DNA from: a virus
DNA length: 22,367 nucleotides
Virus record (IMG/VR): IMGVR_UViG_3300027782_000394
Span: 1 to 22,367 of that record
Direction: 5' to 3' (one strand)
The position numbers were made by a program, and so were the translations under genes. The notes below the pieces were generated by a model. It was not told where the DNA came from, searched no databases, and saw only the letters and a list, made by a program, of their open reading frames with translations. Of this stretch, positions 2,031 through 18,066 are shown piece by piece. Numbering within the stretch: the first letter of the stretch is position 1; each line of letters opens with the position of its first letter.

Positions 2031-3253
2031 GTGTAACATTTCCAGCAACTACCACTGTAGGAACTTTTACCGGAACTCAAGCCACGGGTGGTACATCGTT
2101 ATATACAACTTCGACTGGTTTATATACTGGAACAAGTGCCGTGCATGTGTTTACAGCAAGTGGATTTTTTACGTCTACACAAACCTTACCAGTTACAATT
2201 CTTATTGTTGCGGGTGGTGGTACTGGTGGGCAGGGAGTTCCGGGTACAACAGAAGGAGCTGGAGGAGGTGCTGGAGGAATGGTTGTAGCCACAACCAGTA
2301 CTGTAGCCGGCCAAACATATACCGTCACAGTAGGTGCCGGTGGAGGTCTTTATTCAGCTGCCAACGGTAGTCCCAGTGTTTTTTCCGGAACAGGTATTAC
2401 TTTAACAGCCCTAGGCGGTGGCGCTGGTGCTAATGCTCCGGGAAATGCTAATCTAAATCCAAACGGTAGTGATGCTCGAAAAGCTGGAGCCAATGGTGGA
2501 TCAGGTGGAGGTGGTGGAACATGGACAGGGTCAAATGGCGGCATTGGCACTCAACCTGGACAAAATCCTGGCAGTCCTTGGGTAACACAATATGGTAATC
2601 CAGGTTATGGTAACCCGGGTGTAAACGGTGCCGCGGGTGGTGGAGGTGGTGCTGGAGGATCTGGTGGGCCAGACGTAGGTAACGTAGGTGGTCCCGGTGG
2701 TGTTGGTATAGCATCAACTATTACAGGTGTAGTCACTTATTACGCAGGTGGTGGCGGTGGTTCTTCCGGGGGTTCTCCAGGAAGCGGAGTTGGTGGTGCC
2801 GGTAGTGGATATCCTGGAGCTCCAAGTTTAGGCGGTAGTGCGCTGTCTTACACCGGAGGTGGTGGAGGTGGTGCTAGCAATGGAGGCAACGGCGGTGGCG
2901 GTGCTGGTGGTCCAGGAATAGTGGTTATTTCTTATAATGCTGTATACACAGCTACAACTACACTAGCCAACGGTTATACTTTTACCACGGGATCATATGT
3001 TTGGGTGTATAATACATCTACAAGCCGCTGGTGGAGTACACAAGAACCTACACAAACGTATACCTTAACACCAAACCTAATACAAGATCAAGGTACTACA
3101 TCAACAGGTTATATTGATTTTCCTTACGGTACTACACTTCAACGACCTACTACGCCTACTCTAGGTTATATGCGATTCAATACTGATTTAGGTTATATGG
3201 AATACTATAATACTGCCAGTATCTGGGTACAAATCCCCAATCAAAACACTTAA
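2027..3253 (+). CDS. Glycine-rich tail-fibre/adhesin protein
   Basis: This 408-residue protein starts inside the stop of the preceding gene (ATGA at 2027-2030), which implies translational coupling. It carries the linker also seen twice in the upstream protein (LYTTSTGLYTGTSAVHVFTA), one glycine-rich module at about residues 60-305 that closes with GGPGIVVISY, and a different C-terminal part. The C-terminus holds tail-fibre motifs: VWVYNTSTSRWWST, then QRPTTPTLGYMRFNTD and YYNTASIWVQIP. The 'RP..P..G.iRfNtd.g..E.yn...W..i' pattern is common near the ends of phage fibre and virion proteins. It is most likely a virion surface component that acts with the upstream glycine-rich protein. The receptor is unknown, and the exact place in the fibre cannot be read from sequence. 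Confidence 0.85.
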   Translation: MSVTFPATTTVGTFTGTQATGGTSLYTTSTGLYTGTSAVHVFTASGFFTSTQTLPVTILIVAGGGTGGQGVPGTTEGAGGGAGGMVVATTSTVAGQTYTVTVGAGGGLYSAANGSPSVFSGTGITLTALGGGAGANAPGNANLNPNGSDARKAGANGGSGGGGGTWTGSNGGIGTQPGQNPGSPWVTQYGNPGYGNPGVNGAAGGGGGAGGSGGPDVGNVGGPGGVGIASTITGVVTYYAGGGGGSSGGSPGSGVGGAGSGYPGAPSLGGSALSYTGGGGGGASNGGNGGGGAGGPGIVVISYNAVYTATTTLANGYTFTTGSYVWVYNTSTSRWWSTQEPTQTYTLTPNLIQDQGTTSTGYIDFPYGTTLQRPTTPTLGYMRFNTDLGYMEYYNTASIWVQIPNQNT

Positions 3254-3308: not shown

Positions 3309-3356
3309 ATGCATAATCAATTACCACATCTGGAGCTAAATTTTGAGTCTAGCTAG
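3309..3356 (+). CDS. Possible 15-residue leader peptide overlapping the next start
   Basis: An ATG at 3309 has a strong Shine-Dalgarno stretch (AGGAAAGG, 3295-3302) at good spacing and opens a 15-codon frame (MHNQLPHLELNFESS) that stops at 3354-3356, eleven bases past the TTG start of the large fibre gene. It may be a short upstream peptide coupled to the fibre gene, or the true N-terminus of that gene joined by a +1 shift near 3343-3345. It may also be chance. The frame of the fibre gene is closed by a TAA at 3337, so the two are not simply in-frame extensions. Confidence 0.3.
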   Translation: MHNQLPHLELNFESS

Positions 3357-6300
3357 TCAACTATCGTTTTTTTATTCCTCAACAGGAACAGTACTACTTT
3401 CTAGTACAGCAACATCTACTAGTACAACAACAGGTGCGTTGGTAGTTCCTGGTGGGGTTGGTATATCAAAAGATTTATATGTTGGCGGGACAATTTATGG
3501 AACTATTGACGAAACTAGTTTATCGGGTATATTAGCCAGCACATCCACTGATGCTATGAATGTGCTGATCAATAATAGCGTATCAGCAACAACCTATTAT
3601 ATAGCATTAACGGAACAAAAAGACGGAAATTATTCACCACTCGATGCCGATACAAATGTTTATTACGACACAGAAACTCAAACATTAACATCGACAAAAT
3701 TTAATACTCTTGGAGCAACTAATAGTACTAGCACAACTACAGGCGATATAGTTGTTGCAGGCGGAATTGGTGTTGGTAAAGATTTATATGTTGGTGGAAC
3801 AGTAACTGGTGGCGGTATACGCTCGACCACAACATCAACCCCACCCCCAAATCCTACAGTAGGTGACATTTGGTATAACACAGCTGATGACACATTCTAT
3901 AGATATACTTCAGATGGTGTAACTAATGCTTGGTTAGACTATGCAGGTCCTGCAGTAGGTAATGCTGTTAACGGTTCTAACGTGGCGGCCAGCTTAATAC
4001 CTACATCTAGTGGAGTTTACGATCTAGGTTCAAATACAAATAGATTCCGTACATTATATGTAACGTCTAGCACCATAGATATTGGCGGAGTTGCTCTCAG
4101 TGCCACCGGTGGATCATTGGCTGTAGGTGGGGTAGCATTGGCTACTACTGCATCAGTGGCAGCTTCTGTGGCTGTAGGCGGTGGACCAAAAATAACCAGT
4201 GTTCAACTAACCACAGGATCAAGCTACACAGTTACAACAGCCACAGCGATATCAACCAGTGGCGGATACATATTAATTAATGGAACAGGATTTGTAGCAA
4301 CACCACAAGTAACTATTGGTGCACAACTGGCTACCAGTATTGGTTTTGTCAGTGCAACACAGCTACAGGTACAGGTACCTGCACAGGCCGCTGGTACTTA
4401 TCCAGTATATGTTACTAACTCAGACGGTGGGGTGGCAATTAATGTTCCAGGATTAACTTATAATCAATCTCCTGTATGGGCCACAGGATCAACATTGACT
4501 CCCGGTGTTAATGGAAACGCAATCAGCATACAATTATCTGCAACAGATGACGGTTCAGTAACTTACTCTGTGTCTTCTGGTAGTAGTTTACCCAGTGGAT
4601 TATCTTTAAGTTCCGGTGGATTATTATCGGGTACAGTCACTGGGTTAAGTGTAGAGACTACTTATAATTTTAGTATTGATGCTATTGACAGTTATACACA
4701 AAAAGTTACACAATCGTTCTCTATAACTATTACCGTTGGTGATGCTTATTTCCCTTATGTTAGTTTATTATTAAATGGTAATGGAACTAACGGTGCACAG
4801 AACAATACATTTTTAGATGGTAGTACAAACAACTTTACTATTACCCGTAATGGTAATACAACACAAGGTACGTTTAGTCCTTATGGTGCAAATTGGAGTA
4901 ATTACTTTGGAACAGCACAGCACAAGTTATCTACAACTGGAATGACTGCATTTGGTTCTGACTTTACCTTGGAACTTTGGATATTCCCAACATCGTTTAA
5001 TGACTACAACACTATTTTTGATAGCAGGGGCGGTGATGGTGATGCAAATGGCGTAGTTCTTGGATTAAATTCTGCGGCTAAAGTATATATTTATACCAAT
5101 GGGGGATTTCTACTTACAACCACTACAGCTATATCTTTAAACACATGGACTCACATAGCTTTAGTGCGAAGCGGCTCTGGCTCTGGTAATGTAAAAGTTT
5201 ACATTAATGGGGTTGCTGACGCTACAACAGCAACATATACAACAAGTTTTACAAGCACAGCACCATCAATTGGTGACGATTGGAACACTCGTGGGTTCTT
5301 GCAATACTTTGGCTACTTGTCAAATCTTCGTGCAGTAACTTCTGCTTTATACACAAGCACATTTACACCAAGTACAACGCCATTGACTACAATAAGCGGA
5401 ACAGTATTGTTAACTTGTCAGTCCAACAGATTTAAAGATAACAGCAGTAGCAACCTTACCATTACAGTAACAGGCTCACCAACTATACAACGTTTCAGTC
5501 CATTCAGTCCTAGTGCAGTTTACTCTACTAGTACAATTGGTGGGTCAGGATACTTTGATGGTGCAGGTGATAGCCTACAAGCACCAAGTGGTGCAAGTAT
5601 TTCGGGAACCGGAGACTTTACGGCTGAATGCTGGATATACCCAACCACTATTCCAGGATCCTATAATATTATTGTATGTAGTGATACATCCGGTGGCCTG
5701 ACAATGTTTGGATTAAATTCAAACGGAACTATTTTTATGGGACGCTCTTTAATAGATGTGCAAGCCACAACAAGTAATAGTCTTATTTACAACACATGGA
5801 ATCATATTGCGATCTCTCGTAGTAGCGGAACGGTAAGACTTTTTATAAATGGAGTCCAAGGATACTCAGGAAGTATCACCACAAATTACAACGCAGGCAC
5901 AGTTCGGTTAGGAACCGACGGTGGTGGCTCATCATTGCCCTACACAGGCTATATTTCTAATTTTAGAATTATTTCAAATTCAGCAGTTTACACATCAAAC
6001 TTTACTCCACCAACAGCACCAGTTACTGCAATTAGTGGAACTTCACTATTATTAAATTACACCAACGCTGGTATTATTGATAACACAATGATAAACAATT
6101 TAGAAACAGTTGGCAATGCACAAATATCTACTGTACAAAGTAAATTTGGTGGAAGTAGTATGTACTTTGATGGTACTGGGGATTATTTGAAATCTGTCCC
6201 TTCTGCTGGTAATATATTAAGAGCCGGCAACTTTACTATTGAATTTTGGTTATACCCAAGCGATACCAACTCTGCATATAGAGCATTAGTTTCAAGCGAA

Positions 6301-6657
6301 AATTATGCTAATACAACCGGTGGATGGAGTTTATATCAATACGGCACATCAATTGAGTTTTGGATATCTCCGGGGGTGTCTGTTACAATCAACGCTACTT
6401 CAGCAATAACAGCAAGCACTTGGCAACATTTGGCTCTTTGCCGTGCTTCTGGAACATTGCGTTTGTTTATAAATGGAACAAGCGTAGCCTCTGTGTCAAA
6501 CAGCACAGAATTAACAGGTCAAGAAATTTGGATTGGGGATAATAATAGTGGAAGCTACTTCTACAATGGGTACATAGATGACCTCCGAATAACAAAAGGT
6601 TATGCACGTTATACCACAACCTTTACACCGCCCGCCTCGGCATTACTAGGACAGTAA
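3343..6657 (+). CDS. Large tail fibre with TIG-like, Ig-like and three LamG lectin-like domains
   Basis: This 1104-residue virion protein appears built for binding glycans or surface structures. Near the N-terminus are two copies of the fibre module 'STTTGALVVpGGVGIsKDLYVGGT' (about residues 20-50 and 125-155). A TIG/IPT-like domain follows at about 284-375 (YILINGTGF, then VSATQLQVQVP). Next is a putative Ig-like domain at about 376-465 (SSLPSGLSLSSGGLLSGTV). Three LamG/concanavalin-like domains occupy about 470-685, 690-895 and 900-1104. Each shows F-T-x-E-x-W near 541, 759 and 964, then 'TWxHIALxR', a 'vkvyINGv' strand, and an 'YxGYIsNLRi...YT..FTPp' end. The start is TTG at 3343 with GGAG seven bases upstream; no in-frame ATG exists upstream because of the TAA at 3337. 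The next gene follows after seven bases. Unlike the downstream fibre, it lacks the usual 'SFPxxPxNGQ' N-terminus. Confidence 0.88.
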   Translation: MSLASQLSFFYSSTGTVLLSSTATSTSTTTGALVVPGGVGISKDLYVGGTIYGTIDETSLSGILASTSTDAMNVLINNSVSATTYYIALTEQKDGNYSPLDADTNVYYDTETQTLTSTKFNTLGATNSTSTTTGDIVVAGGIGVGKDLYVGGTVTGGGIRSTTTSTPPPNPTVGDIWYNTADDTFYRYTSDGVTNAWLDYAGPAVGNAVNGSNVAASLIPTSSGVYDLGSNTNRFRTLYVTSSTIDIGGVALSATGGSLAVGGVALATTASVAASVAVGGGPKITSVQLTTGSSYTVTTATAISTSGGYILINGTGFVATPQVTIGAQLATSIGFVSATQLQVQVPAQAAGTYPVYVTNSDGGVAINVPGLTYNQSPVWATGSTLTPGVNGNAISIQLSATDDGSVTYSVSSGSSLPSGLSLSSGGLLSGTVTGLSVETTYNFSIDAIDSYTQKVTQSFSITITVGDAYFPYVSLLLNGNGTNGAQNNTFLDGSTNNFTITRNGNTTQGTFSPYGANWSNYFGTAQHKLSTTGMTAFGSDFTLELWIFPTSFNDYNTIFDSRGGDGDANGVVLGLNSAAKVYIYTNGGFLLTTTTAISLNTWTHIALVRSGSGSGNVKVYINGVADATTATYTTSFTSTAPSIGDDWNTRGFLQYFGYLSNLRAVTSALYTSTFTPSTTPLTTISGTVLLTCQSNRFKDNSSSNLTITVTGSPTIQRFSPFSPSAVYSTSTIGGSGYFDGAGDSLQAPSGASISGTGDFTAECWIYPTTIPGSYNIIVCSDTSGGLTMFGLNSNGTIFMGRSLIDVQATTSNSLIYNTWNHIAISRSSGTVRLFINGVQGYSGSITTNYNAGTVRLGTDGGGSSLPYTGYISNFRIISNSAVYTSNFTPPTAPVTAISGTSLLLNYTNAGIIDNTMINNLETVGNAQISTVQSKFGGSSMYFDGTGDYLKSVPSAGNILRAGNFTIEFWLYPSDTNSAYRALVSSENYANTTGGWSLYQYGTSIEFWISPGVSVTINATSAITASTWQHLALCRASGTLRLFINGTSVASVSNSTELTGQEIWIGDNNSGSYFYNGYIDDLRITKGYARYTTTFTPPASALLGQ

Positions 6658-6664: not shown

Positions 6665-9600
6665 ATGAGCTTCCCAATTTCACCCACAAACGGACAAACG
6701 GCAGTACTTAATGGTATAACTTATACTTACAGTACTAGTACCACAGCTTGGAAAAGACTACAGAGTACTGTTACTGGTACTACAACGCTTTCTATAACTG
6801 GCACTACATCAGCAACATCAACTACAACTGGCGCATTACAAGTAGCTGGCGGTGTTGGAATACAAGGTTCTGTTTATATTGCCAATACATCATATATTAA
6901 TGGTGCACAGATTGTTACAACTGCTACAATAGGTAATATTGGAGGCGGTACTGGATACACTGGTTCAATTGGATATACAGGTAGTGCTGGTGGATTAGGT
7001 TATACAGGTAGTTTAGGCTATACAGGTAGTGCCGGTGATCTTGGTTATACAGGTAGTTTAGGATACACAGGTAGTGCTGGCGGTCTTGGTTATACTGGCA
7101 GTTTAGGTTATACTGGTAGTGCTGGCGGATTAGGGTATACAGGTAGTTTAGGTTATACTGGTAGTTTAGGATACACAGGTAGTCAAGGATACACAGGTAG
7201 TCAAGGATACACTGGTAGTTTAGGATACACAGGTAGTGCCGGATCATTTACCGGAACCACATCACTACAGATTATCACTTCAAATACATCGGCTTCTACT
7301 AGCACCACAACAGGTGCACTACAGATAGCCGGTGGTGCCGGAATTGGCGGTGCAGTTAATATTGGACAAACCAGTACTATACGTGGTTCTGAAATTATTA
7401 CTACGGCCACTATTGGATTATATTCATCTGTATCTGCAACAACATCAACTAGCAGTATCGTTACTATTTCAGATGTTGCCCCAACTAGTCCTGCAAATGG
7501 ACAACTTTGGTGGGACAGCAGTGTTGGAGATTTAAGTGTATTTTACATTGACAATAATGGCGGTCATTGGGTCGATGCCGTAGCACAGAATCAGTTTACC
7601 GGCGGAACTGTAATTAACGCCTTAGTTGTAGCTAATACAGCAAGTTCTTTCTCGACTGTAACTGGCGCACTGCAAGTAGCAGGTGGTGCAGGAATTGGCG
7701 GTAATTTATATGTTGGCGGTATCAGCTATGTTGGGGGATCTTTAGTAATAACAGCGGCAAATGTTTCAACATATGTTGCTAGTTCTATTGCTGCCGGAAT
7801 TGCTCTTCCAGGAACAACCTCAACATTTGTTATAACAAATAATACTAGTGCAACTTCGACTGCAACAGGTGCATTGACTGTAACAGGCGGTCTAGGAGTA
7901 GGCAAAGATGCATACATTGGCGGAAATTTAAATATTGGCGGTGAGATCGTTGCCAGTAAATTAACAATTGAATATACAACGGTTACAACCACGTTGATTA
8001 AAACAGATGATATTATCAGCACTAGTAATTCAACATCAGCTACATCAACTACAACAGGCGCTTTAATAATTACAGGTGGAGTTGGAGTTGGAGGAACGGT
8101 ATACGCAGGCAATGTATATTCAAATGGTTCATTAATTAGTGGTACCACTATATCAGATACGCCTCCCGTAAATCCAGGCAATGGACAAATGTGGTGGGAC
8201 AGTAGTGTTGGCGATCTAAGTATATACTATGTTGATGCTAATGGCGGACATTGGGTTGACGCTGTCGCACAAAATCAATTTACTGGCGGTACTATAATTA
8301 ACGCTTTAATTATATCTACGACAACAAATTCAGTATCAACTACAACTGGTGCATTACAAGTAGCCGGTGGTGCTGGTATTGGCGGGTCTGTTTACATTGG
8401 TAATACTTCATATATAGCTGGTGCACAGATTGTTACAACAGCTACTATGCAATCTCTTGGTGGCACTGGATACACTGGTAGTGCTGGCGGTTTAGGATAT
8501 ACCGGTAGTGCTGGCGGTGCTGGCGGCCTTGGGTACACTGGTAGTTTAGGATATACTGGTAGTGCCGGCGGCCTTGGGTACACTGGTAGTTTAGGATATA
8601 CTGGTAGTGCTGGCGGCCTTGGGTACACTGGTAGTCTTGGGTATACTGGTAGTGCTGGCGGCCTTGGGTACACTGGTAGTTTAGGATATACTGGTAGTGC
8701 TGGCGGCCTTGGGTACACTGGTAGTTTAGGATATACTGGTAGTATTGGGTACACTGGTAGTCTTGGATATACTGGTAGTTTAGGATATACTGGTAGTATT
8801 GGGTACACTGGTAGTCTTGGATATACTGGTAGTGCTGGTGGTGCTGGCGGCCTTGGGTACACTGGTAGTTTAGGATATACTGGTAGTTTGGGATATACTG
8901 GTAGTGCCGGTAGTGATGGTCCAGTTGCTGGATCAGCTAATCAGGTGGTATACAAAAACGCTAGTAATATTGCTTCAGGCAGTGCTAATTTAACGTTTGA
9001 TGGAGTTAGCTTATCTGTATATGGTATTCCTATTGGCCATGGTAGCTACGGATACGGTGCAGTAAATTCTAATAGTATTGCTATTGGCTCAGGAGCACTT
9101 CTTCAAAATTCTGGTGATTATAATACAGCCTTAGGAAATGGCGCAGGTTATATGGTTGGCTCAGGCGGATCTGGTACATATATTGGAGCAAATACCGCCG
9201 CCGGAGGAGGGTCTGGAATTACTGGCGCCAGAAACACAGCAATAGGATATGCGGCTGGGTTTGCCTTGACAAGTACCGCAAATAATAATACATATGTTGG
9301 CGCAGGGTCTGGTTCAGGTATGACTGGCTCTAAAAATAGTATCCTTGGTCAGTTTTATGGCAATAGTGGCGGTCTAGACATTACCTCATTAAGTAACTAT
9401 GTAGTTCTTTCCGACGGGGATGGAAATCCACTTGCTTATGTGGTTAATGGTGGGTCATGGTATCAAAAGAGTAATAGTTCATCTTGGGCCACCACGTCTG
9501 ACATTCGTTTAAAAAACAATATTAAACCATTAACAAGTGCATTAGACCTTATTGAAAAACTGAATCCGGTATCATTTAATTATATTGAAAACAATAAATC

Positions 9601-9778
9601 TGATATTGGGTTTATTGCTCAGGAATATAAACAGGTTCTTCCTGAGCAAGTAATAGTCAAAGAAGATACCAAAGATACTTTAGTGATTCAGCAAAATCTA
9701 ATTCCATATTTGGTAAAATCTATTCAGGAACTTAAAGCAGAAGTAGACTTACTTAAACAACAACTTGCATCTCGATAG
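6665..9778 (+). CDS. Collagen-like tail fibre with C-terminal Peptidase S74 chaperone
   Basis: This 1037-residue fibre starts with the common fibre N-terminus (SFPISPTNGQTAVLNGITY). Six 'STTTGALqVAGGaGIGGsVYIG' modules alternate with two 'NGQlWWDSSVGDLS' modules. Two collagen-like Gly-X-Y arrays lie at residues 97-192 and 602-754. A head-like region with NTALGNGAG and NTAIGYAAG repeats (about 800-900) resembles YadA-type beta-rolls. The C-terminus is the endosialidase-type intramolecular chaperone (Peptidase S74). It has SDIRLKNNI with Ser945 and Lys950 in the S-x4-K spacing of the known catalytic pair, then IGFIAQE, LIPYLVKSIQEL and a short coiled coil. In this family the chaperone trimerises the fibre and cuts itself off before the Ser, which would release the last 93 residues. 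No good Shine-Dalgarno is seen at the ATG. A fibre binding the host surface is the best reading. Confidence 0.95.
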   Translation: MSFPISPTNGQTAVLNGITYTYSTSTTAWKRLQSTVTGTTTLSITGTTSATSTTTGALQVAGGVGIQGSVYIANTSYINGAQIVTTATIGNIGGGTGYTGSIGYTGSAGGLGYTGSLGYTGSAGDLGYTGSLGYTGSAGGLGYTGSLGYTGSAGGLGYTGSLGYTGSLGYTGSQGYTGSQGYTGSLGYTGSAGSFTGTTSLQIITSNTSASTSTTTGALQIAGGAGIGGAVNIGQTSTIRGSEIITTATIGLYSSVSATTSTSSIVTISDVAPTSPANGQLWWDSSVGDLSVFYIDNNGGHWVDAVAQNQFTGGTVINALVVANTASSFSTVTGALQVAGGAGIGGNLYVGGISYVGGSLVITAANVSTYVASSIAAGIALPGTTSTFVITNNTSATSTATGALTVTGGLGVGKDAYIGGNLNIGGEIVASKLTIEYTTVTTTLIKTDDIISTSNSTSATSTTTGALIITGGVGVGGTVYAGNVYSNGSLISGTTISDTPPVNPGNGQMWWDSSVGDLSIYYVDANGGHWVDAVAQNQFTGGTIINALIISTTTNSVSTTTGALQVAGGAGIGGSVYIGNTSYIAGAQIVTTATMQSLGGTGYTGSAGGLGYTGSAGGAGGLGYTGSLGYTGSAGGLGYTGSLGYTGSAGGLGYTGSLGYTGSAGGLGYTGSLGYTGSAGGLGYTGSLGYTGSIGYTGSLGYTGSLGYTGSIGYTGSLGYTGSAGGAGGLGYTGSLGYTGSLGYTGSAGSDGPVAGSANQVVYKNASNIASGSANLTFDGVSLSVYGIPIGHGSYGYGAVNSNSIAIGSGALLQNSGDYNTALGNGAGYMVGSGGSGTYIGANTAAGGGSGITGARNTAIGYAAGFALTSTANNNTYVGAGSGSGMTGSKNSILGQFYGNSGGLDITSLSNYVVLSDGDGNPLAYVVNGGSWYQKSNSSSWATTSDIRLKNNIKPLTSALDLIEKLNPVSFNYIENNKSDIGFIAQEYKQVLPEQVIVKEDTKDTLVIQQNLIPYLVKSIQELKAEVDLLKQQLASR
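6953..7240 (+). repeat. Collagen-like array 1 (14 GYTGS units)
   Basis: Thirty-two uninterrupted Gly-X-Y triplets built from GYT, GSL, GSA, GGL, GDL and GSQ, with 14 occurrences of GYTGS. No proline is present, so any triple helix would be stabilised differently from animal collagen; phage and bacterial collagen-like fibres of this sort are known. Confidence 0.92.
7559..8293 (+). repeat. Duplicated fibre module with synonymous divergence
   Basis: The module running from 'NGQlWWDSSVGDLS' to 'GGHWVDAVAQNQFTGGT' occurs twice, with its 17-residue end encoded at 7559-7609 and 8243-8293. Those 17 residues are identical in both copies while nine of the 17 codons differ synonymously. Each copy is followed by GALQVAGGAGIGG modules, and the second leads into the second collagen array, so a large internal segment seems duplicated. 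Confidence 0.85.
8468..8926 (+). repeat. Collagen-like array 2 (20 GYTGS units, with 45-bp tandem repeats)
   Basis: Fifty-one Gly-X-Y triplets with 20 GYTGS occurrences. Within it a 45-bp DNA unit encoding GGLGYTGSLGYTGSA starts at 8522, 8567, 8612, 8657 and 8702 with few base changes; a further copy of its start is at 8846. Such DNA repeats can expand or contract in frame by slippage or recombination. Confidence 0.92.
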
Positions 9779-9787
9779 GATATTAAA

Positions 9788-10105
9788 ATGTCAACAACAT
9801 TTTCAACAAAAATTACGGTCATGTATACCATACAACAAACTGACCCTAATTATGTAATTAACGCAATCTGGGAATTAACAGGAGTAGACGGCACTTATAC
9901 TGCTTCTGTTGGCGGCAACACACAGTTTGACTCACAGCAATCAGAAACATTTGTACCTTATGACCAACTAACAGAGTCTTTAGTCATTAGTTGGATACCC
10001 GAGAGCCAAATAGACATTGCAAAGGCAAGTGTACAAGGACAAATTGATTCGTTAATTACTCCACCTATTGGCCCTAAAAATACACCACTGCCCTGGTCAG
10101 CCTAA
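9788..10105 (+). CDS. Small DUF7936-like protein associated with fibre genes
   Basis: This 105-residue protein has an AGGAT ribosome-binding site overlapping the stop of the fibre gene (9776-9781), six bases before its ATG. Its pattern matches a small family I recognise from marine phages, DUF7936: an N-terminal beta-strand, 'WELTGVDGTYTASVGG', 'FVPYDQLTESLVISWI', a helix with 'AKASVQGQID' and a proline-rich end 'PLPW'. Function is unknown. These proteins usually lie beside virion genes, and the immediate coupling to the S74 fibre points to a role in the same structure or its assembly. Family identity is from pattern memory and should be tested by profile search. Confidence 0.65.
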   Translation: MSTTFSTKITVMYTIQQTDPNYVINAIWELTGVDGTYTASVGGNTQFDSQQSETFVPYDQLTESLVISWIPESQIDIAKASVQGQIDSLITPPIGPKNTPLPWSA

Positions 10106-10226: not shown

Positions 10227-11291
10227 ATGGCTTTTTATACTAACGGAATTCAAAATATTGACAATCAGGGTATTGTAGAATTACCTATTGTTCAGTCACC
10301 TAATTTACCAATTTCCGCGGTAGCAGGGTATCTGTTATATCTTCAAGATCAAAAAGTTCTTACAATAAGTACTGGAAATCCCAGTGACCTATGGAGATCA
10401 TTTCAAGCTGTACCACTCAGTTACAAAAATGAAGTTCCTTTAGAACAGAGTATTATAGCCGGTGGATATAACAGTGACATAGGGTTTGATGGTCGAAATT
10501 CTATGAGTCGGTTACAGTTTTCTTCAGATGCTACTATACAATTATCTACAACCGTACCTTTTAATCTTGCCCGAGGTGCACATCATTCTACTTGGCAATA
10601 TGCCTATTTCCATGGAGGAAATGTTAATTCATCTGCCAAACAAGATTGGTCAACATTTACTATAACCAGCATAACATCTAGGCCTGGGTCAAATTTCTTT
10701 CCTACGGCTTGTTTAAATCCAGGTAAGAAAGGTGAAAATACATTAGGTCTACTTTTTAATCTATTTGCAAGTTACGAAATAAATTTTTCTACGGATTCCT
10801 GGTCCACTGGAAATTACAACAACAATACCAATAATAATTGTGGAACATTTGGAGAGACTAGCGGATATGCTTGGAATCAAAATACAGTTCAAAAATTAAA
10901 CTGGAGTACTAGGGTTTGGTCCGCTACGGGGGCAGGACCCGCTAATGGTAGTAACTTTAGTAAACTTTTAAACTCTAAATGGAACAAGTGGTATCTACCG
11001 GGCAACACAGGAGGAGTCGGCGGTACAGGTGGTACTCCTACAATGGATATTTACAGCAATTCTAGTGATACATTTTCAGCTGGAGCTACTCCAGTAACAA
11101 CCATCCTAGGGTGCGACGGAGTCATGGCGCAAGATTGGGGATATTGGGCAGGTTACTATAATTTTCAAGAAGGATATACTGGGAATGCTTTAAAGATGGA
11201 CTATGCCTCAAATACTATGAGCTCAAGTCTTAGATCATATTTGGCGTATTCTGTTTCTAATGCTTCTACTCCCTCGGGTCCAATCTCATAA
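10227..11291 (+). CDS. Beta-propeller-like virion/adhesin paralogue 1 of 3
   Basis: This 354-residue protein is first of three tandem paralogues. The shared frame is an N-terminal 'VAGYLLYLQDQKVLTISTG', a blade-like unit 'RLQFSSDATIQLSTTVPFN' ending in AYFHGGN, a middle 'FSTDSWSTGNY' unit, 'NSKWNKWYLPGN', and a C-terminal 'MAQDWGYW' signature. Aromatic- and glycine-rich repeats of about 45-50 residues with a 'D-x-W' ending resemble kelch-type beta-propellers, but I do not see the full kelch consensus, so this is a fold guess. There is no signal peptide. Position after the fibre genes and under a late motif suggests a virion protein, perhaps a receptor-binding tip. It may instead be an independent baseplate or head decoration. 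Confidence 0.7.
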   Translation: MAFYTNGIQNIDNQGIVELPIVQSPNLPISAVAGYLLYLQDQKVLTISTGNPSDLWRSFQAVPLSYKNEVPLEQSIIAGGYNSDIGFDGRNSMSRLQFSSDATIQLSTTVPFNLARGAHHSTWQYAYFHGGNVNSSAKQDWSTFTITSITSRPGSNFFPTACLNPGKKGENTLGLLFNLFASYEINFSTDSWSTGNYNNNTNNNCGTFGETSGYAWNQNTVQKLNWSTRVWSATGAGPANGSNFSKLLNSKWNKWYLPGNTGGVGGTGGTPTMDIYSNSSDTFSAGATPVTTILGCDGVMAQDWGYWAGYYNFQEGYTGNALKMDYASNTMSSSLRSYLAYSVSNASTPSGPIS

Positions 11292-11303
11292 TAAAGGTAA
11301 AAA

Positions 11304-12614
11304 ATGGCATTTTATATAGGCACCAACACCGCTAAAATAATAATCAATAATGACGGTATTTTTGAAATAGGAACCTACGGAACCAGAGCCGATTTACCCG
11401 GTTCAGGTGTACGAGGCTACATGGCTTGGGTCTCTGATCAACAAGAACTTGTAATTAATACAGGAAATACAGTACACCCCAGTCCTAACAATACTCAACC
11501 AACACCGGTTGTTTCTTCTGTTTCCCCAGATGAAGGTGTTACTTGGTATAAGATAGTAAATCCCAGTGGTGCTTCAACGCAGAGTGTACGATTAGATCAA
11601 GGAACATTGTGTGGTGGATATAATAGTCAGGTAAATTGGAATACTATACATCGGCTAGATTTTAACACAGATTCTGCAATGTTGCGACCAGAAACTACTC
11701 CGTGGGCCACTAGATATTCCACAGCTATGAGTAGCAAATTATTTGCTTATTATCATGCAGGGTTTACGGGACCAACCCCTGGTCCTGATAGCCCCTCAAA
11801 TCGGCAAACATGCCGACAAAGCTGGACTACATTTGCGTTATCTTTAATAGCCAGTGCTCGACCTAGTGCCATGGGCGAAGGATTTCAAGTTGCACTATAT
11901 TCTACCAGTAACTTAAACAATAACTACGGTCTAATACAATATGGAGGAGAATGTAATTATTTTATTTTTGCCACCGATACTACAACCACAACCGATGAAT
12001 GGTATGCAAACGGTGCAGGACCATATTCTGGAGTAGATCTTCGTGACCCTAATGGGGGTGCTAGTAACGATTACGGGTTATCTGCAAACGGTCCAAATTT
12101 TGGTTATGTAAATCATAGAAACGTTGCTAAATTTAATTGGAATAGTAAAGCCTACATCTTAACTGGACAGGCTTCTCCAAGAACGGCTGGCGGATTTCCT
12201 CGAGGAGGCCATAGTACTCCATACAATAAATTTTATTACGGGGTTGACGATAACATCGACAGTTATAATACTACTCTCGACCAATGGAATTCTTCAACTC
12301 TTCAGTTTCCGTTGTTTACTGACGACAGCAGATTTAGCGATGCCGGCGGAGCACGAAGCAGGTTATTTGAAGGTAGTGCTATTCCAGGACAAGACTGGGG
12401 ATACTGGTATTCAATGTGGGGATATCAAAGATATCAATATCCTGCGGCGTACACATCATTTACGTCTTATACAAATCTTTCTCAAAAAACATTCTATGCT
12501 ACAGATACAACCGTATGGAGTCCAAGTAGCGATCTAGGATCTAGGACAAGTTCTTGGGCCGCTGGGCCTATTAGTGGTAATTCGGCCAGTGGTTGTAGCG
12601 GCCCAACCAGTTAG
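11304..12614 (+). CDS. Beta-propeller-like virion/adhesin paralogue 2 of 3
   Basis: At 436 residues this is the longest paralogue. It starts 12 bases after the previous stop, with AAAGGT about six bases before the ATG. The common landmarks are present: 'VRGYMAWVSDQQELVINTG', 'RLDFNTDSAMLRPETTPW' ending in AYYHAGFT, 'YNKFYYGVDDNIDSYNTT' and 'GQDWGYW'. Compared with paralogues 1 and 3 it has an extra insert after the N-terminal motif (about residues 55-75) and longer middle loops. Sequence similarity between the three is confined to these landmarks, so the copies are old or diversifying fast, as expected for surfaces that contact the host. Function is not known. Confidence 0.7.
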   Translation: MAFYIGTNTAKIIINNDGIFEIGTYGTRADLPGSGVRGYMAWVSDQQELVINTGNTVHPSPNNTQPTPVVSSVSPDEGVTWYKIVNPSGASTQSVRLDQGTLCGGYNSQVNWNTIHRLDFNTDSAMLRPETTPWATRYSTAMSSKLFAYYHAGFTGPTPGPDSPSNRQTCRQSWTTFALSLIASARPSAMGEGFQVALYSTSNLNNNYGLIQYGGECNYFIFATDTTTTTDEWYANGAGPYSGVDLRDPNGGASNDYGLSANGPNFGYVNHRNVAKFNWNSKAYILTGQASPRTAGGFPRGGHSTPYNKFYYGVDDNIDSYNTTLDQWNSSTLQFPLFTDDSRFSDAGGARSRLFEGSAIPGQDWGYWYSMWGYQRYQYPAAYTSFTSYTNLSQKTFYATDTTVWSPSSDLGSRTSSWAAGPISGNSASGCSGPTS

Positions 12615-12622
12615 GAAATAAT

Positions 12623-13747
12623 ATGGGATACTTTATTAACAATCAAAATATCGTTGATAATAGCAGGAATCTTGCCCCTGGAAAATTTACTAATAGAGCT
12701 TCTTTACCGTCACCTAGCACGTTAGGTTATCTTGCCTATATATCAGATCAAAATGATCTTGCTGTAGGGGGGATAGTTAATAGTATGTTACCTGATATAG
12801 GAAATACCTGGTATAAATTTATGATCAGACCTTTAGATTATAAAAACGAAGTTATTTTATCACAGGGCGTTATTGGAGGAGGCGGGGCTGCCGGCGAAGA
12901 CAGAAATACTATACAACAAATGATATATAGTGTTGATACAATTGTTAAACTAGTAACAACATTACCTGTTACTACAGCATACGGTGGCGGCCACGGAAAT
13001 AAGTTGCATGCCTACTATCATCAAGGTCGTGATACAGCTATGGCAACAGCCGGAAAGACAGCTCTTAAAAATGACTGGGCAACGTATTCTATACAAATTC
13101 TTCCTGAAAGACCTAATTGTTTTGGTGCTAATATTAATACTACACAACCAGGCCCTGTTATACAAAATACCTTTGGTGTTGTTATGCAAGGAACTGCCAG
13201 TTGTTATATAACTTTCAGTACAGATACTTGGACTGTAGGTGGATATAATGCTCCTTCTACTGGAACCGGGTGGGCGACATACAGTGGAAATTACGGTTAT
13301 AATTATTCTGGTAGTGGTGATTTATACAGACTAACGTTCCCAAGCGGATCTTGGGCATCCACGGGTGCGGGTGGACCTCCAAATGGCGGTGGGGCCGGTA
13401 AGGTCTTAAATACCAAATGGGGGAAATTTTACAATGGTGGTGGTAAGGTTGATCGATATACCGAAGCATCAAATAGTTGGAGCATAGCCGCCAATTCACC
13501 TAACGGTTCTACCCCAGGATCATGGCAAGAACAAACTACCCTAATGGCACAAGATTGGGGATATTGGTGCGGGTTTTCTGATACTACTAGTGGCACAGCC
13601 TATTACAAAATTACTTACCAGCATCATTATGCCACAGAAACACTGACAGCCAGTATAACAATATCAAATCTACAAGCCACAGCAAACATGGGTGTAGCCA
13701 GCATATCATTTCCTACAGTAGCCGGATGTAGTACACAAGGACCGTAG
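12623..13747 (+). CDS. Beta-propeller-like virion/adhesin paralogue 3 of 3
   Basis: This 374-residue protein has an AGGA site overlapping the preceding stop and six bases before its ATG. Landmarks are 'LGYLAYISDQNDLAVGG', 'MIYSVDTIVKLVTTLP' ending in AYYHQGRD, 'FSTDTWTVGGYNAPS', 'NTKWGKFYNGGGKVDRYT' and 'MAQDWGYW'. The phrase 'PLDYKNEVILSQGVIGGG' matches 'PLSYKNEVPLEQSIIAGG' of paralogue 1, so 1 and 3 are closer to each other there than to 2. It is the last adhesin-like gene before the halogenase. The halogenase's AAGGA ribosome-binding site lies in its last codons, so translation is probably coupled. Confidence 0.7.
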   Translation: MGYFINNQNIVDNSRNLAPGKFTNRASLPSPSTLGYLAYISDQNDLAVGGIVNSMLPDIGNTWYKFMIRPLDYKNEVILSQGVIGGGGAAGEDRNTIQQMIYSVDTIVKLVTTLPVTTAYGGGHGNKLHAYYHQGRDTAMATAGKTALKNDWATYSIQILPERPNCFGANINTTQPGPVIQNTFGVVMQGTASCYITFSTDTWTVGGYNAPSTGTGWATYSGNYGYNYSGSGDLYRLTFPSGSWASTGAGGPPNGGGAGKVLNTKWGKFYNGGGKVDRYTEASNSWSIAANSPNGSTPGSWQEQTTLMAQDWGYWCGFSDTTSGTAYYKITYQHHYATETLTASITISNLQATANMGVASISFPTVAGCSTQGP

Positions 13748-13749
13748 AA

Positions 13750-15138
13750 TTGATAAGTAGTTTCATGAAGTATGATATTACTATTATTGGCGGAGGTACC
13801 TCTGGTTGGTTAGCCGCAGCCTATCTTAAATTTCACAATGTAGAAAAATCTATATGTTTAATCGAAAGCCCTAATATACCCACAATCGGAGTTGGCGAAG
13901 GGACATTCCCAACAACAATGTGGCTGTTAAATAGCATAGGAATACCACACTATAAATTATTAGCAGAAAGCAATGGCGGTATAAAATTAGGCATACAATA
14001 CCGAGATTTTAGTGAACAAACATTTTGGCTTAGCACTTCGGGTCCAGAAGAGTGGGAACGTTGGGGGACAGAAATGACCAAACAAGTAGCATTGTCCAAT
14101 AAAACTGCGGTTGTAAACGAAAATGGATTTGTTGCCTGCCATTTTGTTGCAGGTGATTTGGCAAAATTACTAAAAGATCACGCAATAACTCTGGGAGTTG
14201 TACACTTATCAGAAGAAGTTATATCTTCTACGGTAGAAAATAATCAATGTCAGAGTATAACTTTAAATAATAACAACACAATATCTTCAAATTGGTTTTT
14301 AGACTGCTCGGGGTTTGCTAGACTATTAGTTAAACAGACTAATAGTAAATTTGTTAGCTACAGTGATCATTTATTTGTAGACAGTGCGGTAGTTGGCCCC
14401 ACTCCTTATAAAAATAAAGAAAAAGAATTTGACCCTTATAGCAAAATAACAGCAAGGACAGCAGGGTGGCAATTTAGAATCCCAACATATTCAAGAATTG
14501 GAAACGGATATGTTTATAGTAGTCAATTTACTTCTCCAGAAGATGCTGAAAAAGAACTTCGAAATACAGTACCCGAATTAGACCAAGTTAAACATTTAAA
14601 AATGACTTTGGGCTATTATGATGAATTAATTACAGGTAATATTGTTGCCATAGGACTTAGTGGAGGATTTATTGAACCTATGGAAGCTACTGCAATTCAT
14701 CTTACAGAAAGAACAATCATAGCATTCAACGATTTACTCAAAGGAACTGACACAGTTGATTCAGTAAATCAATATCTTAAAAATAAAATAAAATATATCA
14801 AAACATTAATATTAGCACACTATGCCTTTAGTAAAAGAACAGATCCGTTTTGGAAATTGGCCCAAACAAAGGCATATAACTCTGAAGAAATTCAAGAATT
14901 TTTTAGTAAATTACAAAATGGTAAATTTCCTACCCCACAAGATAAATTAGATATTGCCTACCCATACACACAATGGAATGAATTATTAAAAGGTTTTTTT
15001 CAGCCCCACTACTATCCCGCTATAAATAACAAAGCCAAAGCAGAGATATATATGAGTACATATTATTCTCCCAGCCATTATAATTACATTGAAGAATTAA
15101 GGAAAAAAAATGAACAAAAAAACATACACAGCCACTGA
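13750..15138 (+). CDS. Flavin-dependent halogenase, tryptophan-halogenase family
   Basis: The family oxidises halide with reduced FAD to hypohalous acid, which a conserved lysine hands to an aromatic substrate. Seen here, numbered from the TTG at 13750: the FAD-binding GGGTSGW (14-20), GVGEGTFP (47-54), a lysine in GGIKLGIQY (K79) where the catalytic lysine is expected, and GFIEPMEATA with Glu312, matching the catalytic Glu region ESTG. The diagnostic WxWxIP appears as GWQFRIP (239-245), so its second Trp is Phe. Length (462 residues) is slightly below the usual 500-540. AAGGA lies eight bases before the TTG; a start at ATG 13765 would match family N-termini better, so the start is uncertain. 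Viral members exist, for example VirX1 of a cyanophage, which accepts free substrates and iodinates well. A partner flavin reductase is not in this window. Confidence 0.92.
   Translation: MISSFMKYDITIIGGGTSGWLAAAYLKFHNVEKSICLIESPNIPTIGVGEGTFPTTMWLLNSIGIPHYKLLAESNGGIKLGIQYRDFSEQTFWLSTSGPEEWERWGTEMTKQVALSNKTAVVNENGFVACHFVAGDLAKLLKDHAITLGVVHLSEEVISSTVENNQCQSITLNNNNTISSNWFLDCSGFARLLVKQTNSKFVSYSDHLFVDSAVVGPTPYKNKEKEFDPYSKITARTAGWQFRIPTYSRIGNGYVYSSQFTSPEDAEKELRNTVPELDQVKHLKMTLGYYDELITGNIVAIGLSGGFIEPMEATAIHLTERTIIAFNDLLKGTDTVDSVNQYLKNKIKYIKTLILAHYAFSKRTDPFWKLAQTKAYNSEEIQEFFSKLQNGKFPTPQDKLDIAYPYTQWNELLKGFFQPHYYPAINNKAKAEIYMSTYYSPSHYNYIEELRKKNEQKNIHSH
15021..15029 (+). promoter_or_regulatory. Possible late promoter inside the halogenase gene (TATAAATAA)
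   Basis: A perfect T4-type TATAAATA box lies within the 3' end of the halogenase gene, about 80 bases before the coiled-coil gene. It encodes ordinary residues there and may be chance in AT-rich DNA, but could give separate late expression of the three downstream genes. Confidence 0.3.
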
Positions 15139-15787
15139 TATCCTAGATAACGTTGAAAAGGGTATGAGCGATTTTCAAATTAAAAATTTTGTTGTCAATG
15201 CTCAGCTGACACCATTAAAGCAATTACAACAGGCCGCAATGGAAGCGCAGGTTAGAGAAGATAATTTAAAAAAATCTGAATTTGAAATAACTAAAACTAA
15301 ACTAAAAATTAAAATTTTTGAAGCTCACAAAGAAAAAACCGACGACGAAATAGAAAAAGCACAAGTAGATCTTGATTTAATTATTGCTAACGAAAAACTC
15401 ATTAGTATCGACAAAGAAAAGAAAAGAATAGCAAGAGAATTAAAAAGTTTTCAAGATGTTTTAGATTTTTTTAACGAGAATTATGACATTGAAAAGATGA
15501 TTGAAATGCAGGACACATTAGATATAGACTACTGGGTCAAAAGATTATCTAAACAGGCCAGTATGGATATTATTTCAACTGGTCGCATTGGTACTGGAAA
15601 TCTCAGTGCTATGTTAGATATGCCAGATGATATATTTCAAATATGTGTACAAGAAACTTATGCGTTAACAAACAAATTAGCCAAAGTAATACCCATGCCT
15701 GGATTGAATGGGCCAAATAGTCAAGAAGACTCGCTGTTGAAATTCAATCCTAATGATAAGGATACTCCAAATGCTATTAGTCAATAA
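15110..15787 (+). CDS. Coiled-coil protein of unknown function
   Basis: This 225-residue protein overlaps the end of the halogenase gene by 29 bases; AGGA is six bases before its ATG. Residues about 35-115 are strongly charged and heptad-like, rich in K and E, and predict a long coiled coil. The start (TATDILDNVEKGM, then FVVNAQLTPLKQLQQA) and the later 'MIEMQDTLDIDYWVKRLSKQASMDI' look globular, and the C-terminal 30 residues are polar and probably disordered. I do not recognise a named family. No membrane segment or signal peptide is seen. Its overlap with the halogenase and with the following gene means it is co-expressed with them. It could be a virion rod, an assembly factor or a scaffold for the enzymes. 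Confidence 0.75.
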   Translation: MNKKTYTATDILDNVEKGMSDFQIKNFVVNAQLTPLKQLQQAAMEAQVREDNLKKSEFEITKTKLKIKIFEAHKEKTDDEIEKAQVDLDLIIANEKLISIDKEKKRIARELKSFQDVLDFFNENYDIEKMIEMQDTLDIDYWVKRLSKQASMDIISTGRIGTGNLSAMLDMPDDIFQICVQETYALTNKLAKVIPMPGLNGPNSQEDSLLKFNPNDKDTPNAISQ

Positions 15788-16400
15788 TAAAATTTCTGGG
15801 TTAGGAATTAACTTACCCAGTGGCCAGAGAACAACATTAAGTGTAAATTATTCATTAATAGATACTGATAATACTTGGTGGTATACCATACCAGACATTG
15901 CTGTAAATCGTATTAAACAAATTACAGATACAACCCTCATAGATCAATTGAAACTGTTGACTCGTACTATTCACAAAGATGGCACTGTTAGAATGTACGG
16001 AACCGGTGTAGATTGGTTGGGAGAACCACTTGCAGGTTCTGAATTAGAAAATTTTTTAGAAGGTGCAAAATATATTGCCAAACTAAATGTGGCGATAGCT
16101 TATGATAATAAGGCTAAAACATTAGTTGGAAATGAATCTGTGTTAGAACAAGGTACATGGGCACAGCAGTTATCAGAAGCCCAAGCTGTAATATCTGACT
16201 CTAATGCTAGTACTCCTTTATTAACAGTATTAGCCTCTGCAAGAAATATATCAGTAGCAGACTACGCACAAAATGTTATAACTGCGTCTAATAATTATGC
16301 TCAGGCACAGTCTTCATTGCTTGCAGAACTTAAGACAAATTATCAACTAATTGACACAGCGTCAACAGCACAAGCTCTTAAGGATACTGGGTGGATTTAA
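15771..16400 (+). CDS. Unknown protein, possibly tail-fibre assembly related
   Basis: The start chosen is ATG 15771, which has AAGGA (15758-15762) eight bases upstream; an ATG at 15753 extends the frame six codons but has no ribosome-binding site. The 209-residue product overlaps the coiled-coil gene by 17 bases. The N-terminal half has beta-type features with 'LPSGQRTTLSVNYSLIDTDNTWWY' and a Gly-rich 'YGTGVDWLGEPLAG'; the C-terminal half is helical and Ala-rich, ending 'LIDTASTAQALKDTGWI'. The ending resembles the helical C-termini of some phage tail-fibre assembly or DUF4376-type proteins, but this is weak and I would not assign a function. It is co-transcribed with the halogenase and oxygenase genes. 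Confidence 0.7.
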   Translation: MLLVNNKISGLGINLPSGQRTTLSVNYSLIDTDNTWWYTIPDIAVNRIKQITDTTLIDQLKLLTRTIHKDGTVRMYGTGVDWLGEPLAGSELENFLEGAKYIAKLNVAIAYDNKAKTLVGNESVLEQGTWAQQLSEAQAVISDSNASTPLLTVLASARNISVADYAQNVITASNNYAQAQSSLLAELKTNYQLIDTASTAQALKDTGWI

Positions 16401-16963
16401 AAGAGTATCAGTTGTTTACTAGTCCTGTATGGACTTTTGAAAACACAATTGATCCTGTCACCCTTGATTTATTAATTAAGTTTTCCTACGACACAGTAGA
16501 ACGGTATCCTATGGAAACTCCTATCAGTAAACGTAATGGTAGGAACAGTGAATGGGTATCTATCCCAAATCCTGCGTTGCTGGAAGTATTGCAAGCCGCT
16601 ATACATCAAATTAAATTAGTATATCAACCTACAGTGCCCTTAAACTTAAAAAAATATTGGGTGAATATTAATCCTCCCGGTGCCTACAACGTTCGACACA
16701 ATCATCCCAATACTGTATTGGCCTGCACTCTGTATTTACAAACACCTGAGAATAGTGGCGATTTTGTAGTACACAATCCAAACCCTGCGGCTATGTTTGC
16801 CGCATATAGTAATAAACGAGCCCACTATAACTTTAGTGAATTCCGTATAACACCAACTCCTGGTATGTTTTTAGCTGTTCCTGGTTGGTTAGATCATTCA
16901 GTAGATCTTAATACATCAGACTCTGATCGTATCTCGATCAGTATGAATCTCTCAGCCGGTTGA
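16391..16963 (+). CDS. 2OG-Fe(II) oxygenase family protein
   Basis: This 190-residue protein starts with GTG at 16391, inside the end of the upstream gene, with AAGGA six bases before it. It resembles the short phage and bacterial family of putative 2-oxoglutarate/Fe(II) oxygenases (TIGR02466 type). That family has a double-stranded beta-helix with 'GAYNVRHNHPNTVLACTLYL', a 'SGDFVVHNP' strand, and 'PGMFLAVPGWLDHSV' followed by 'DRISISMNL'. Candidate metal ligands are H103/H105 and H169; R180, eleven residues after H169, fits the 2-oxoglutarate carboxylate anchor. The acidic ligand of the usual HxD/E...H triad is not obvious. Such enzymes hydroxylate proteins, nucleic acids or small molecules; phage copies often sit near fibre genes. 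Here it closes the cassette that starts with the halogenase. Substrate is unknown. Confidence 0.85.
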   Translation: MDLKEYQLFTSPVWTFENTIDPVTLDLLIKFSYDTVERYPMETPISKRNGRNSEWVSIPNPALLEVLQAAIHQIKLVYQPTVPLNLKKYWVNINPPGAYNVRHNHPNTVLACTLYLQTPENSGDFVVHNPNPAAMFAAYSNKRAHYNFSEFRITPTPGMFLAVPGWLDHSVDLNTSDSDRISISMNLSAG

Positions 16964-16987
16964 CTTTTCCAAAAATTCCTGTATAAT
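16960..16987 (+). promoter_or_regulatory. Strong sigma70-type promoter for the membrane permease gene
   Basis: TTGACT (16960-16965) and a perfect TATAAT (16982-16987) are separated by 16 bases. The -35 box overlaps the end of the oxygenase gene. The start codon at 17026 follows a full AGGAG site six bases upstream. This is a host-type promoter, unlike the late motifs of the virion genes, and implies early or constitutive expression. Confidence 0.85.
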
Positions 16988-17025: not shown

Positions 17026-18066
17026 ATGGACTTCATCACAACCGTCCTGTTAAAGGATATTTCGTATCTATGGATGATATTCTTCATTATGATCACTGCC
17101 GGACTAGCAAAAGAGTACGCTCTATTCGCCCCGGCATTTGCCTATGTAAGAAACACATTCCGTAGCAATAAGTTTGTTGTAGTGCTCCTAAGTGCGATTG
17201 GTGGAATATTGCCAATTGAAGGTCGAGTCACTGTGTCAGCAGGTTTGTTGGACACAGTTGCACCTAAGTGTGGACATGGCCGTGAGAAGTTAGGCATTGT
17301 AGACTATCTAAGTACGCACCACTATTATTTGTGGTCGCCATTAGAGAAAACTGTAATACTACCTATCGCGGCATTTGGAATTACTTACACCGCATGGCTT
17401 GGTCTAGTTGCACCGTTGTTAATTGTCAGTTTAGTATTCATTACTTGGTACATATGGAGTCAGGTAAAGGATGAAGAAATTACAATTACACCCGGGACTT
17501 TTAAACTATCAGCAGTCCTTCGTAATGTTGCACCAATGTTTGTAGCCGTTGGCTTGTACATTTATAACAGTGCATGGATGATTGGTTGTTTTGGTTTCTT
17601 AACTCTATATTACATCTTTATCAGTCAACAATGGAACATTAAGAAATTACTGAGCTATGTTCGCTGGGATGTATTAGCATGGGTTGGTGCAGTTATCGCT
17701 TTAGGGAACTACATGAAATCTTATGATGCCGCATGGCAATCTATGTTAAAGACAAGTGTGCTTGATCCGCATACTTTTGTTGGCATGGTGGCTATTTCAG
17801 CTATTGGTTTTATAGCCAGTTTCTTAATGGGTAGTTCGGGTAAGTTTGTTGCAATCGCTGTATTAATGTCTCAAGTCTTTGGACACGAGTATTTCTTATG
17901 GTTCTTTGCATTAGACTTTGCTGGATATCTCATTAGCCCCACGCATAAGTGTGTTATGATTGGTAATCGTTATTTTGGTACACCAGTTGGCACTTATTAC
18001 CGGGCGTTAGGAGCATGGGGAGTTTTACTGCTTGCAACAGGTGCTATTTTTACATTTTTAATCTAG
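17026..18066 (+). CDS. DUF401-like integral membrane permease
   Basis: This 346-residue, very hydrophobic protein has about ten predicted membrane segments and would sit in the host inner membrane. The C-terminal region 'FAGYLISPTHKCVMIGNRYFG' (SPTHKC at 304-309), preceded by 'MGSSGKFVAIAVLM', matches the pattern I know for DUF401 proteins (PF04165), where 'GyllSPvHlC..l..eYF' is typical. Another conserved-looking stretch is 'GGILPIEGRVTVSAGLLD' (59-76), with glycines in a broken membrane helix. DUF401 belongs to the ion-transporter-like permeases; its substrate is not established. It has its own sigma70 promoter, a strong AGGAG site and a terminator, and is flanked by unrelated operons. This looks like an acquired auxiliary gene. 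I know of no standard T4-like phage gene of this kind; the alternative is another family of permease with similar topology. Confidence 0.75.
   Translation: MDFITTVLLKDISYLWMIFFIMITAGLAKEYALFAPAFAYVRNTFRSNKFVVVLLSAIGGILPIEGRVTVSAGLLDTVAPKCGHGREKLGIVDYLSTHHYYLWSPLEKTVILPIAAFGITYTAWLGLVAPLLIVSLVFITWYIWSQVKDEEITITPGTFKLSAVLRNVAPMFVAVGLYIYNSAWMIGCFGFLTLYYIFISQQWNIKKLLSYVRWDVLAWVGAVIALGNYMKSYDAAWQSMLKTSVLDPHTFVGMVAISAIGFIASFLMGSSGKFVAIAVLMSQVFGHEYFLWFFALDFAGYLISPTHKCVMIGNRYFGTPVGTYYRALGAWGVLLLATGAIFTFLI

Follow-up and report, generated by a model that had tools for sequence, protein, structure and literature searches.

A flavin-dependent halogenase-family gene and a 2-oxoglutarate (2OG)-Fe(II) oxygenase gene overlap a conserved adhesin and fibre module in a T4-like tail-phage genome fragment, and they stay beside that module in its relatives. 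The fragment, referred to here as the window, is the entire IMG/VR virus record IMGVR_UViG_3300027782_000394 (22,367 bases). Fibre genes occupy its left side, and a T4 gp15-type tail sheath stabiliser and neck-type proteins are encoded on the right. Between them sit three adhesin-like paralogues (ADH1 to ADH3) and a cassette of four genes encoding, in order, the halogenase-family protein (HAL), two proteins termed G2 and G3, and the 2OG enzyme. We infer that the region could be an island for the maturation of receptor-binding proteins, in which enzymes recruited to fibre loci modify residues of adhesins or fibres, and we rate the chance that this is correct as about even.

Four overlapping genes under purifying selection

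The cassette comprises four open reading frames on the plus strand (13765-16963), with the end of each overlapping the start of the next. With the likely start codons, the overlaps are 29 nt for HAL/G2, 17 nt for G2/G3, and 10 nt for G3/2OG. The HAL start is taken as the ATG at 13765, the TTG at 13750 being only the mechanical first start, and the G3 start is taken as the ATG at 15771 in place of a mechanical start at 15753. The initial annotation of this DNA had described four genes overlapping end to start directly behind three adhesin-like paralogues, and this arrangement is confirmed. Its division of the products into two oxidative enzymes and two other proteins also agrees with the profile matches, which are to PF04820 and PF13759 for the enzymes and to phrog_1409 and phrog_1604 for G2 and G3 (Table 1).

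All genes of the cassette region are under purifying selection. Compared with their counterparts in the three nearest relatives, the proteins are 52-81% identical, and the ratio of nonsynonymous to synonymous differences (pN/pS) is 0.16-0.54, with G3 and the adhesins being the most variable. The reading frames are real rather than chance occurrences because protein identity is kept and pN/pS is low despite near saturation of synonymous sites. No terminator-like site was found within the cassette or at its end.

The halogenase lineage tracks the adhesin type

Relatives were found by alignment-based scans of IMG/VR. Alignments were required, as the halogenase used as a single-sequence query against viral contigs returned no relative, and a DNA-level search of phage isolates gave no match. 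The order ADH-HAL-G2-G3-2OG is found again in contigs L001, L002, L003, L053, L160, L161, and L162, plus the truncated L200, with halogenase identities from 74% down to approximately 48%. The conserved coupling proposed in the initial annotation is therefore borne out, and it extends to the adhesins. Two further arrangements are present: contig L175 has the order ADH-G3-HAL-G2-2OG with tight spacing, and L165 and L166 have the order ADH-G2 ... 2OG-HAL-2OG. Since the genes keep company through rearrangement, a functional relationship is favoured over plain inheritance.

The window halogenase belongs to a clade with 99/96 support in a careful tree, and the contigs of its members carry an adhesin and/or G2 or end before that place. 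G2 or ADH is present in 13 of 16 clade contigs (counting L177, added via an all-sequence FastTree, and the L200 fragment, added by 50% identity and gene order), and in the other three the contig starts within 2 kb of the halogenase on its upstream side. By comparison, the 70 viral halogenase contigs assigned as outside the clade by FastTree or identity all lack G2 and ADH; 31 of them have at least 4 kb of upstream sequence. The corresponding Fisher p value of 1e-13 was computed before L177 joined and is not a true probability since the contigs are related. The halogenase lineage tracks the ADH/G2/G3 type of adhesin.

Additional enzymes are found in some of these neighbourhoods. In L003 (168-2764), a carbamoyltransferase (PF02543/PF16861) and a sulfotransferase (PF13469) are encoded back to back directly upstream of the adhesins, so that more group-transfer enzymes flank the same adhesins. 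A carbamoyltransferase gene is also located approximately 2 kb from the halogenase of phage S-SSM6a. In L163, L166, L180, L195, L205, L215, L231, and L239, halogenase genes occur at least twice, in tandem or close together, and some come from different clades; 2OG oxygenase genes are interleaved with them.

G2 and G3 as parts of an adhesin module

Homologues of G2 were found in 123 records, and wherever a viral contig extends far enough, G2 and G3 are almost always neighbours. T4-like cyanophages, for example P-HM2 and S-RIM2, have the pair behind fibre genes in the order G3-G2, and neither of these two phages has a PF04820 gene. Conversely, phrog_1409 is absent from all 20 halogenase-bearing isolate records tested. 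The existence of cyanophage G3-G2 pairs behind fibres without a halogenase therefore places G2 and G3 in the adhesin module, as an old pair to which the two enzymes were added in particular lineages. The initial annotation had suggested that the four genes form one dedicated system, and the G2/G3 distribution does not support this. A search of phage genomes for the four-gene order, which it had proposed, yielded the eight further contigs described above but also these halogenase-free pairs. Its idea of a virion-modification module survives as an adhesin module with two added enzymes, and not as a universal four-gene system.

The AlphaFold model of G2 is a helical hairpin (mean predicted local distance difference test score, pLDDT, 79), and that of G3 has a small beta part and a helical domain (pLDDT 89). 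The G3 helical domain may resemble DUF4376-type phage proteins, given a Foldseek match to a DUF4376 model (E=4e-3), and G3 has no Pfam match above cut-off, DUF4376 included. Both models would fit a role in assembly or capping. The best PDB folds are coiled coils for G2 (Z 9-11.5) and helical bundles for G3 (Z up to 6, including T7 tail-complex chains); these were dropped as a functional clue because such scores are expected of common helical arrangements.

Features of the two enzymes

HAL matches PF04820 with 271 bits against a family cut-off of 21, and the PDB sequences that it matches best are those of tryptophan halogenases, among them tryptophan 5-halogenase (2WET). The GxGxxG motif for binding flavin adenine dinucleotide (FAD) is present as GGGTSG with invariant glycines, and the catalytic lysine, K74, and the active-site glutamate, E307, are invariant in 10 diverse phage members. 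The catalytic lysine of the phage halogenase VirX1 is K79 (PMC8407142). Every member of the window clade has WxFxIP in place of WxWxIP, the phenylalanine being found also in some sister members, and EATA replaces ESTG across the whole clade. Because of the WxFxIP replacement, HAL is assigned to the halogenase family by profile only, and halogenation itself is a prediction. A weak NCBIfam match to the GoxB maturase (E=7e-6) lies far under the cut-off. The segment between K74 and H126 has a deletion of approximately 30 residues relative to the sister clade and most other members, such that the spacing from the lysine to the conserved histidine is 50-52 residues in the window clade and 65-102 elsewhere. 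This shorter segment could open the active site and give a large substrate more room to enter.

The 2OG enzyme matches TIGR02466 above cut-off in addition to PF13759, and it matches the structures 3BVC and 2RG4. Its candidate metal and 2OG ligands, H103-x-H105 ... H169 ... R180, are invariant and common to PF13759 relatives. Most 2OG oxygenases have H-x-D/E where these proteins have H-x-H, which suggests an unusual metal-binding set.

A parallel neighbourhood in cyanophages

The iodinase VirX1 (6QGM) corresponds by sequence identity to CPUG_00131 of cyanophage Syn10, where two halogenase genes lie in tandem after a pair of Gly_rich_2 genes and VirX1 is the product of the second. The window halogenase lies outside the VirX1 clade, in its own clade described above. 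All 10 tested genes located shortly upstream of cyanophage halogenases are Gly_rich_2 (PF21722), a family presumably linked to the gp38 adhesins of T-even phages. These genes are mostly 0.5-1.3 kb from VirX1-type halogenases, with a phrog_1787 gene between the two in 9 of 9 cases tested. Neither Gly_rich_2 nor phrog_1787 was found in any of 15 window-clade contigs, and in the window itself ADH genes stand upstream of HAL instead. Of the 14 genomes that have a Gly_rich_2 gene, 10 have one no more than 3 kb from the halogenase (0.85 expected at random positions, p ~5e-5), and 16 of 19 genomes have a 2OG gene no more than 5 kb from it (5.3 expected; 13 of 16 versus 4.5 after dereplication), these being random-position nulls that take no account of phage kinship or late-gene clustering. 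The placement of a halogenase and a 2OG oxygenase beside fibre genes is recurrent and statistically non-random in T4-like marine phages. The halogenase gene of the freshwater phage S-SRM01 has a tail-fibre region on one side and, on the other, a gene whose annotation is gp37-gp38 adhesin tip.

Phage S-CREM1 (L070:10613-16103) has eight genes annotated as 2OG-Fe(II) oxygenases and one as JmjC directly behind a halogenase and a collagen-like/Gly_rich_2 gene.

Layout of the window

Feature coordinates are given in Table 1. The GYTGS fibre is of the collagen G-X-Y type, with 34+52 triplets ahead of its terminal Peptidase_S74 domain. The three ADH paralogues together span 10227-13747, directly upstream of HAL, and have a tryptophan content of 2.7-3.1%. 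No match was found between the adhesin and solved structures, and the genes are labelled adhesin-like from their position, their conservation, and the phrog_1417 match. The DUF401-type permease gene that follows the cassette was considered as a fifth member and rejected, because it has its own sigma-70-like promoter sequence (in the window, L001, and L002) and is missing from that place in L161. This gene is conserved in L001-L003 and L053. A Nudix hydrolase gene on the opposite strand (18058-18501) has the same place in relatives.

Table 1. Coordinates, strand and supporting matches of features in the window
Feature	Position	Strand	Evidence
Gly_rich_2 (PF21722) fibre/adhesin-type protein, glycine-rich	204..2030	+	profile E=6e-25
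Second Gly_rich_2 protein	2027..3253	+	E=3e-7
Virion fibre/baseplate-type protein, three LamG-like domains (PF13385)	3343..6657	+	
Collagen-like (G-X-Y)n tail fibre, C-terminal Peptidase_S74 chaperone, GYTGS repeats	6665..9778	+	
DUF7936 small protein, between fibre and adhesins	9788..10105	+	
ADH1, adhesin-like paralogue 1	10227..11291	+	
ADH2, adhesin-like paralogue 2	11304..12614	+	
ADH3, adhesin-like paralogue 3	12623..13747	+	weak phrog_1417 match, E=1e-5
HAL, flavin-dependent halogenase-family protein, PF04820, 457 aa	13765..15138	+	E=2e-80
G2, helical coiled-coil hairpin protein, phrog_1409	15110..15787	+	E=6e-36
G3, beta N-terminus and helical C-terminal domain, phrog_1604 match, possibly DUF4376-like fold	15771..16400	+	E=3e-15
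2OG-Fe(II) oxygenase, PF13759/TIGR02466, GTG start	16391..16963	+	PF13759 E=3e-20
Sigma-70-like promoter TTGACT-16-TATAAT, directly past cassette	16960..16987	+	similar sequence in L001, L002
DUF401-type membrane protein (phrog_14035; TIGR00529-like)	17026..18066	+	judged outside cassette

A possible role in adhesin maturation, and its rivals

In the mechanism that we favour, HAL, the 2OG enzyme, and the adhesins would be co-produced late in infection. G2, as a helical hairpin, and G3, through its possibly DUF4376-like helical domain, may aid the assembly, capping, or presentation of adhesins at fibre tips. HAL would place a halogen (or hydroxyl) on accessible tryptophan or tyrosine residues in an adhesin or fibre. 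The 2OG enzyme would hydroxylate a side chain, either on that virion protein or on one next to it, and these modifications would tune stability or receptor binding. Protein substrates are plausible because there are precedents in MibH, SrpI, and QhpG. The VirX1-type cyanophage halogenases may follow the same principle with another adhesin type (Gly_rich_2) and another halogenase clade. The broader proposition, that adhesins and fibres are halogenated and hydroxylated by phage enzymes recruited more than once to fibre loci and that tail-fibre tips are the native substrates of VirX1-type enzymes, is put forward more tentatively, as somewhat short of an even chance.

Several observations weigh against adhesin modification. 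With WxFxIP in place of the usual motif, halogenation itself is only putative, and the window proteins that were scanned included none recognisable as a flavin reductase. The G2/G3 modules of the tested cyanophages do without a halogenase, and the halogenases of P-SSM2, S-B64, S-PM2, S-RIM44 isolate W2, S-SCSM2R, and a Campylobacter phage do not directly adjoin fibre genes. The limits of the random-position nulls matter here too, as the regions of cyanophage genomes next to fibre genes may just gather accessory genes, and late genes form clusters in any case. The foremost alternative is positional hitch-hiking, in which the stretch from fibre to neck is a tolerant site for accessory genes and the enzymes serve unrelated host-takeover functions with no tie to the adhesins. 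Genes annotated as ferrochelatase and endonuclease are also found in fibre-adjacent stretches of cyanophages, and vertically inherited neighbours could by themselves align a halogenase clade with an adhesin type. We nonetheless consider hitch-hiking unlikely, given that the enzymes stay with the adhesin, G2, and G3 genes in three gene orders, that a separate halogenase clade has a similar neighbourhood with another adhesin type, and that the frames overlap and are under purifying selection.

Two other alternatives keep an enzymatic partnership and change the chemistry. A small-molecule pathway, in which the halogenase makes a halo-tryptophan or halo-indole and further modification by the 2OG enzyme yields a compound with antibiotic-like or signalling activity inside infected cells, would suit the resemblance to tryptophan halogenases and the many small aromatics accepted by VirX1 in vitro (PMC8407142), and an antibiotic-protection role for cyanophage prnA has been offered as speculation (PMC2984593, PMC9964418). 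This pathway appears improbable, as the cassette has no other biosynthetic or export gene, its conserved companions are adhesin and G2/G3 genes rather than metabolic ones, and HAL is missing some 30 residues of the segment between the catalytic lysine and the conserved histidine. Least probable of all is that the flavoprotein is no longer a halogenase and acts as a peptidyl-tryptophan or -tyrosine monooxygenase like QhpG, LodB, or GoxB, hydroxylating or priming adhesin cross-links alongside the 2OG enzyme as a second oxygenase. The clade-wide WxFxIP and EATA motifs, the weak GoxB match, and the QhpG precedent (PMC7876137) are in its favour, but the lysine and glutamate that direct and activate hypohalous acid in halogenases are invariant. 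Modification of adhesins or fibres remains our preferred reading.

At present, the halogenases of viruses and the numerous 2OG oxygenases encoded by marine T4-like phages are classed as auxiliary metabolic genes, and the functions given to them are guesses. For cyanophage prnA, published discussions consider antibiotic protection for the host, and for 2OG oxygenases they consider DNA repair or general metabolism (PMC2984593, PMC9964418, PMC9146016). Our search of the open-access literature, with subscription papers outside its scope, found no paper linking a halogenase or 2OG enzyme to tail fibres or virion modification. The enzyme families are thus known, and the fibre-tracking arrangement and its implication are new. 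If adhesins are the substrates, a large class of supposed auxiliary metabolic genes would turn out to serve virion maturation, host range would acquire a chemical layer that sequence does not reveal, and mass spectrometry of virions from isolates (Syn10, S-CREM1, S-WAM1) would offer a direct test for the natural substrate of VirX1. The arrangement suggests, without proving, that some phages chemically decorate their host-binding tips.

Comparison with known systems

One close parallel is with VirX1 and the cyanophage proteins annotated as PrnA. These are phage PF04820 flavoproteins with the invariant lysine and glutamate, many of them encoded directly behind fibre or adhesin genes with 2OG oxygenases close by. 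They are only ~25-29% identical to HAL, most retain WxWxIP, their Lys-His segment is longer, and they are flanked by Gly_rich_2 and phrog_1787 rather than by ADH, G2, and G3. Tryptophan 5-halogenase, PrnA, and RebH share the fold family, FAD motif, lysine, and glutamate with HAL but also have the longer segment. They act on free tryptophan and are encoded in biosynthetic clusters, whereas HAL is encoded in a virion-gene operon.

Tryptophan of a ribosomally made chain is the target of two halogenases from ribosomally synthesized and post-translationally modified peptide (RiPP) pathways: MibH halogenates a lantibiotic tryptophan after prior proline hydroxylation, and SrpI brominates a tryptophan of a leader-guided peptide (PMC12615548, PMC10858898). 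Both have small-peptide substrates and no phage context, and the likeness drawn here is one of function. QhpG, LodB, and GoxB are flavoproteins that modify tryptophan of a partner protein. QhpG has a halogenase fold and dihydroxylates protein tryptophan, and QhpG and GoxB structurally resemble FAD-dependent halogenases (PMC7876137). These enzymes differ in performing monooxygenation for quinone cofactors, and HAL is only a weak profile match. Finally, the adhesin-G3-G2 module of cyanophages (T4-GC 352/353; P-HM2, S-RIM2) has homologous G2 and G3 genes behind fibre genes. There the order is G3-G2 without a halogenase, whereas in the window group G2-G3 lies between the halogenase and the 2OG enzyme.

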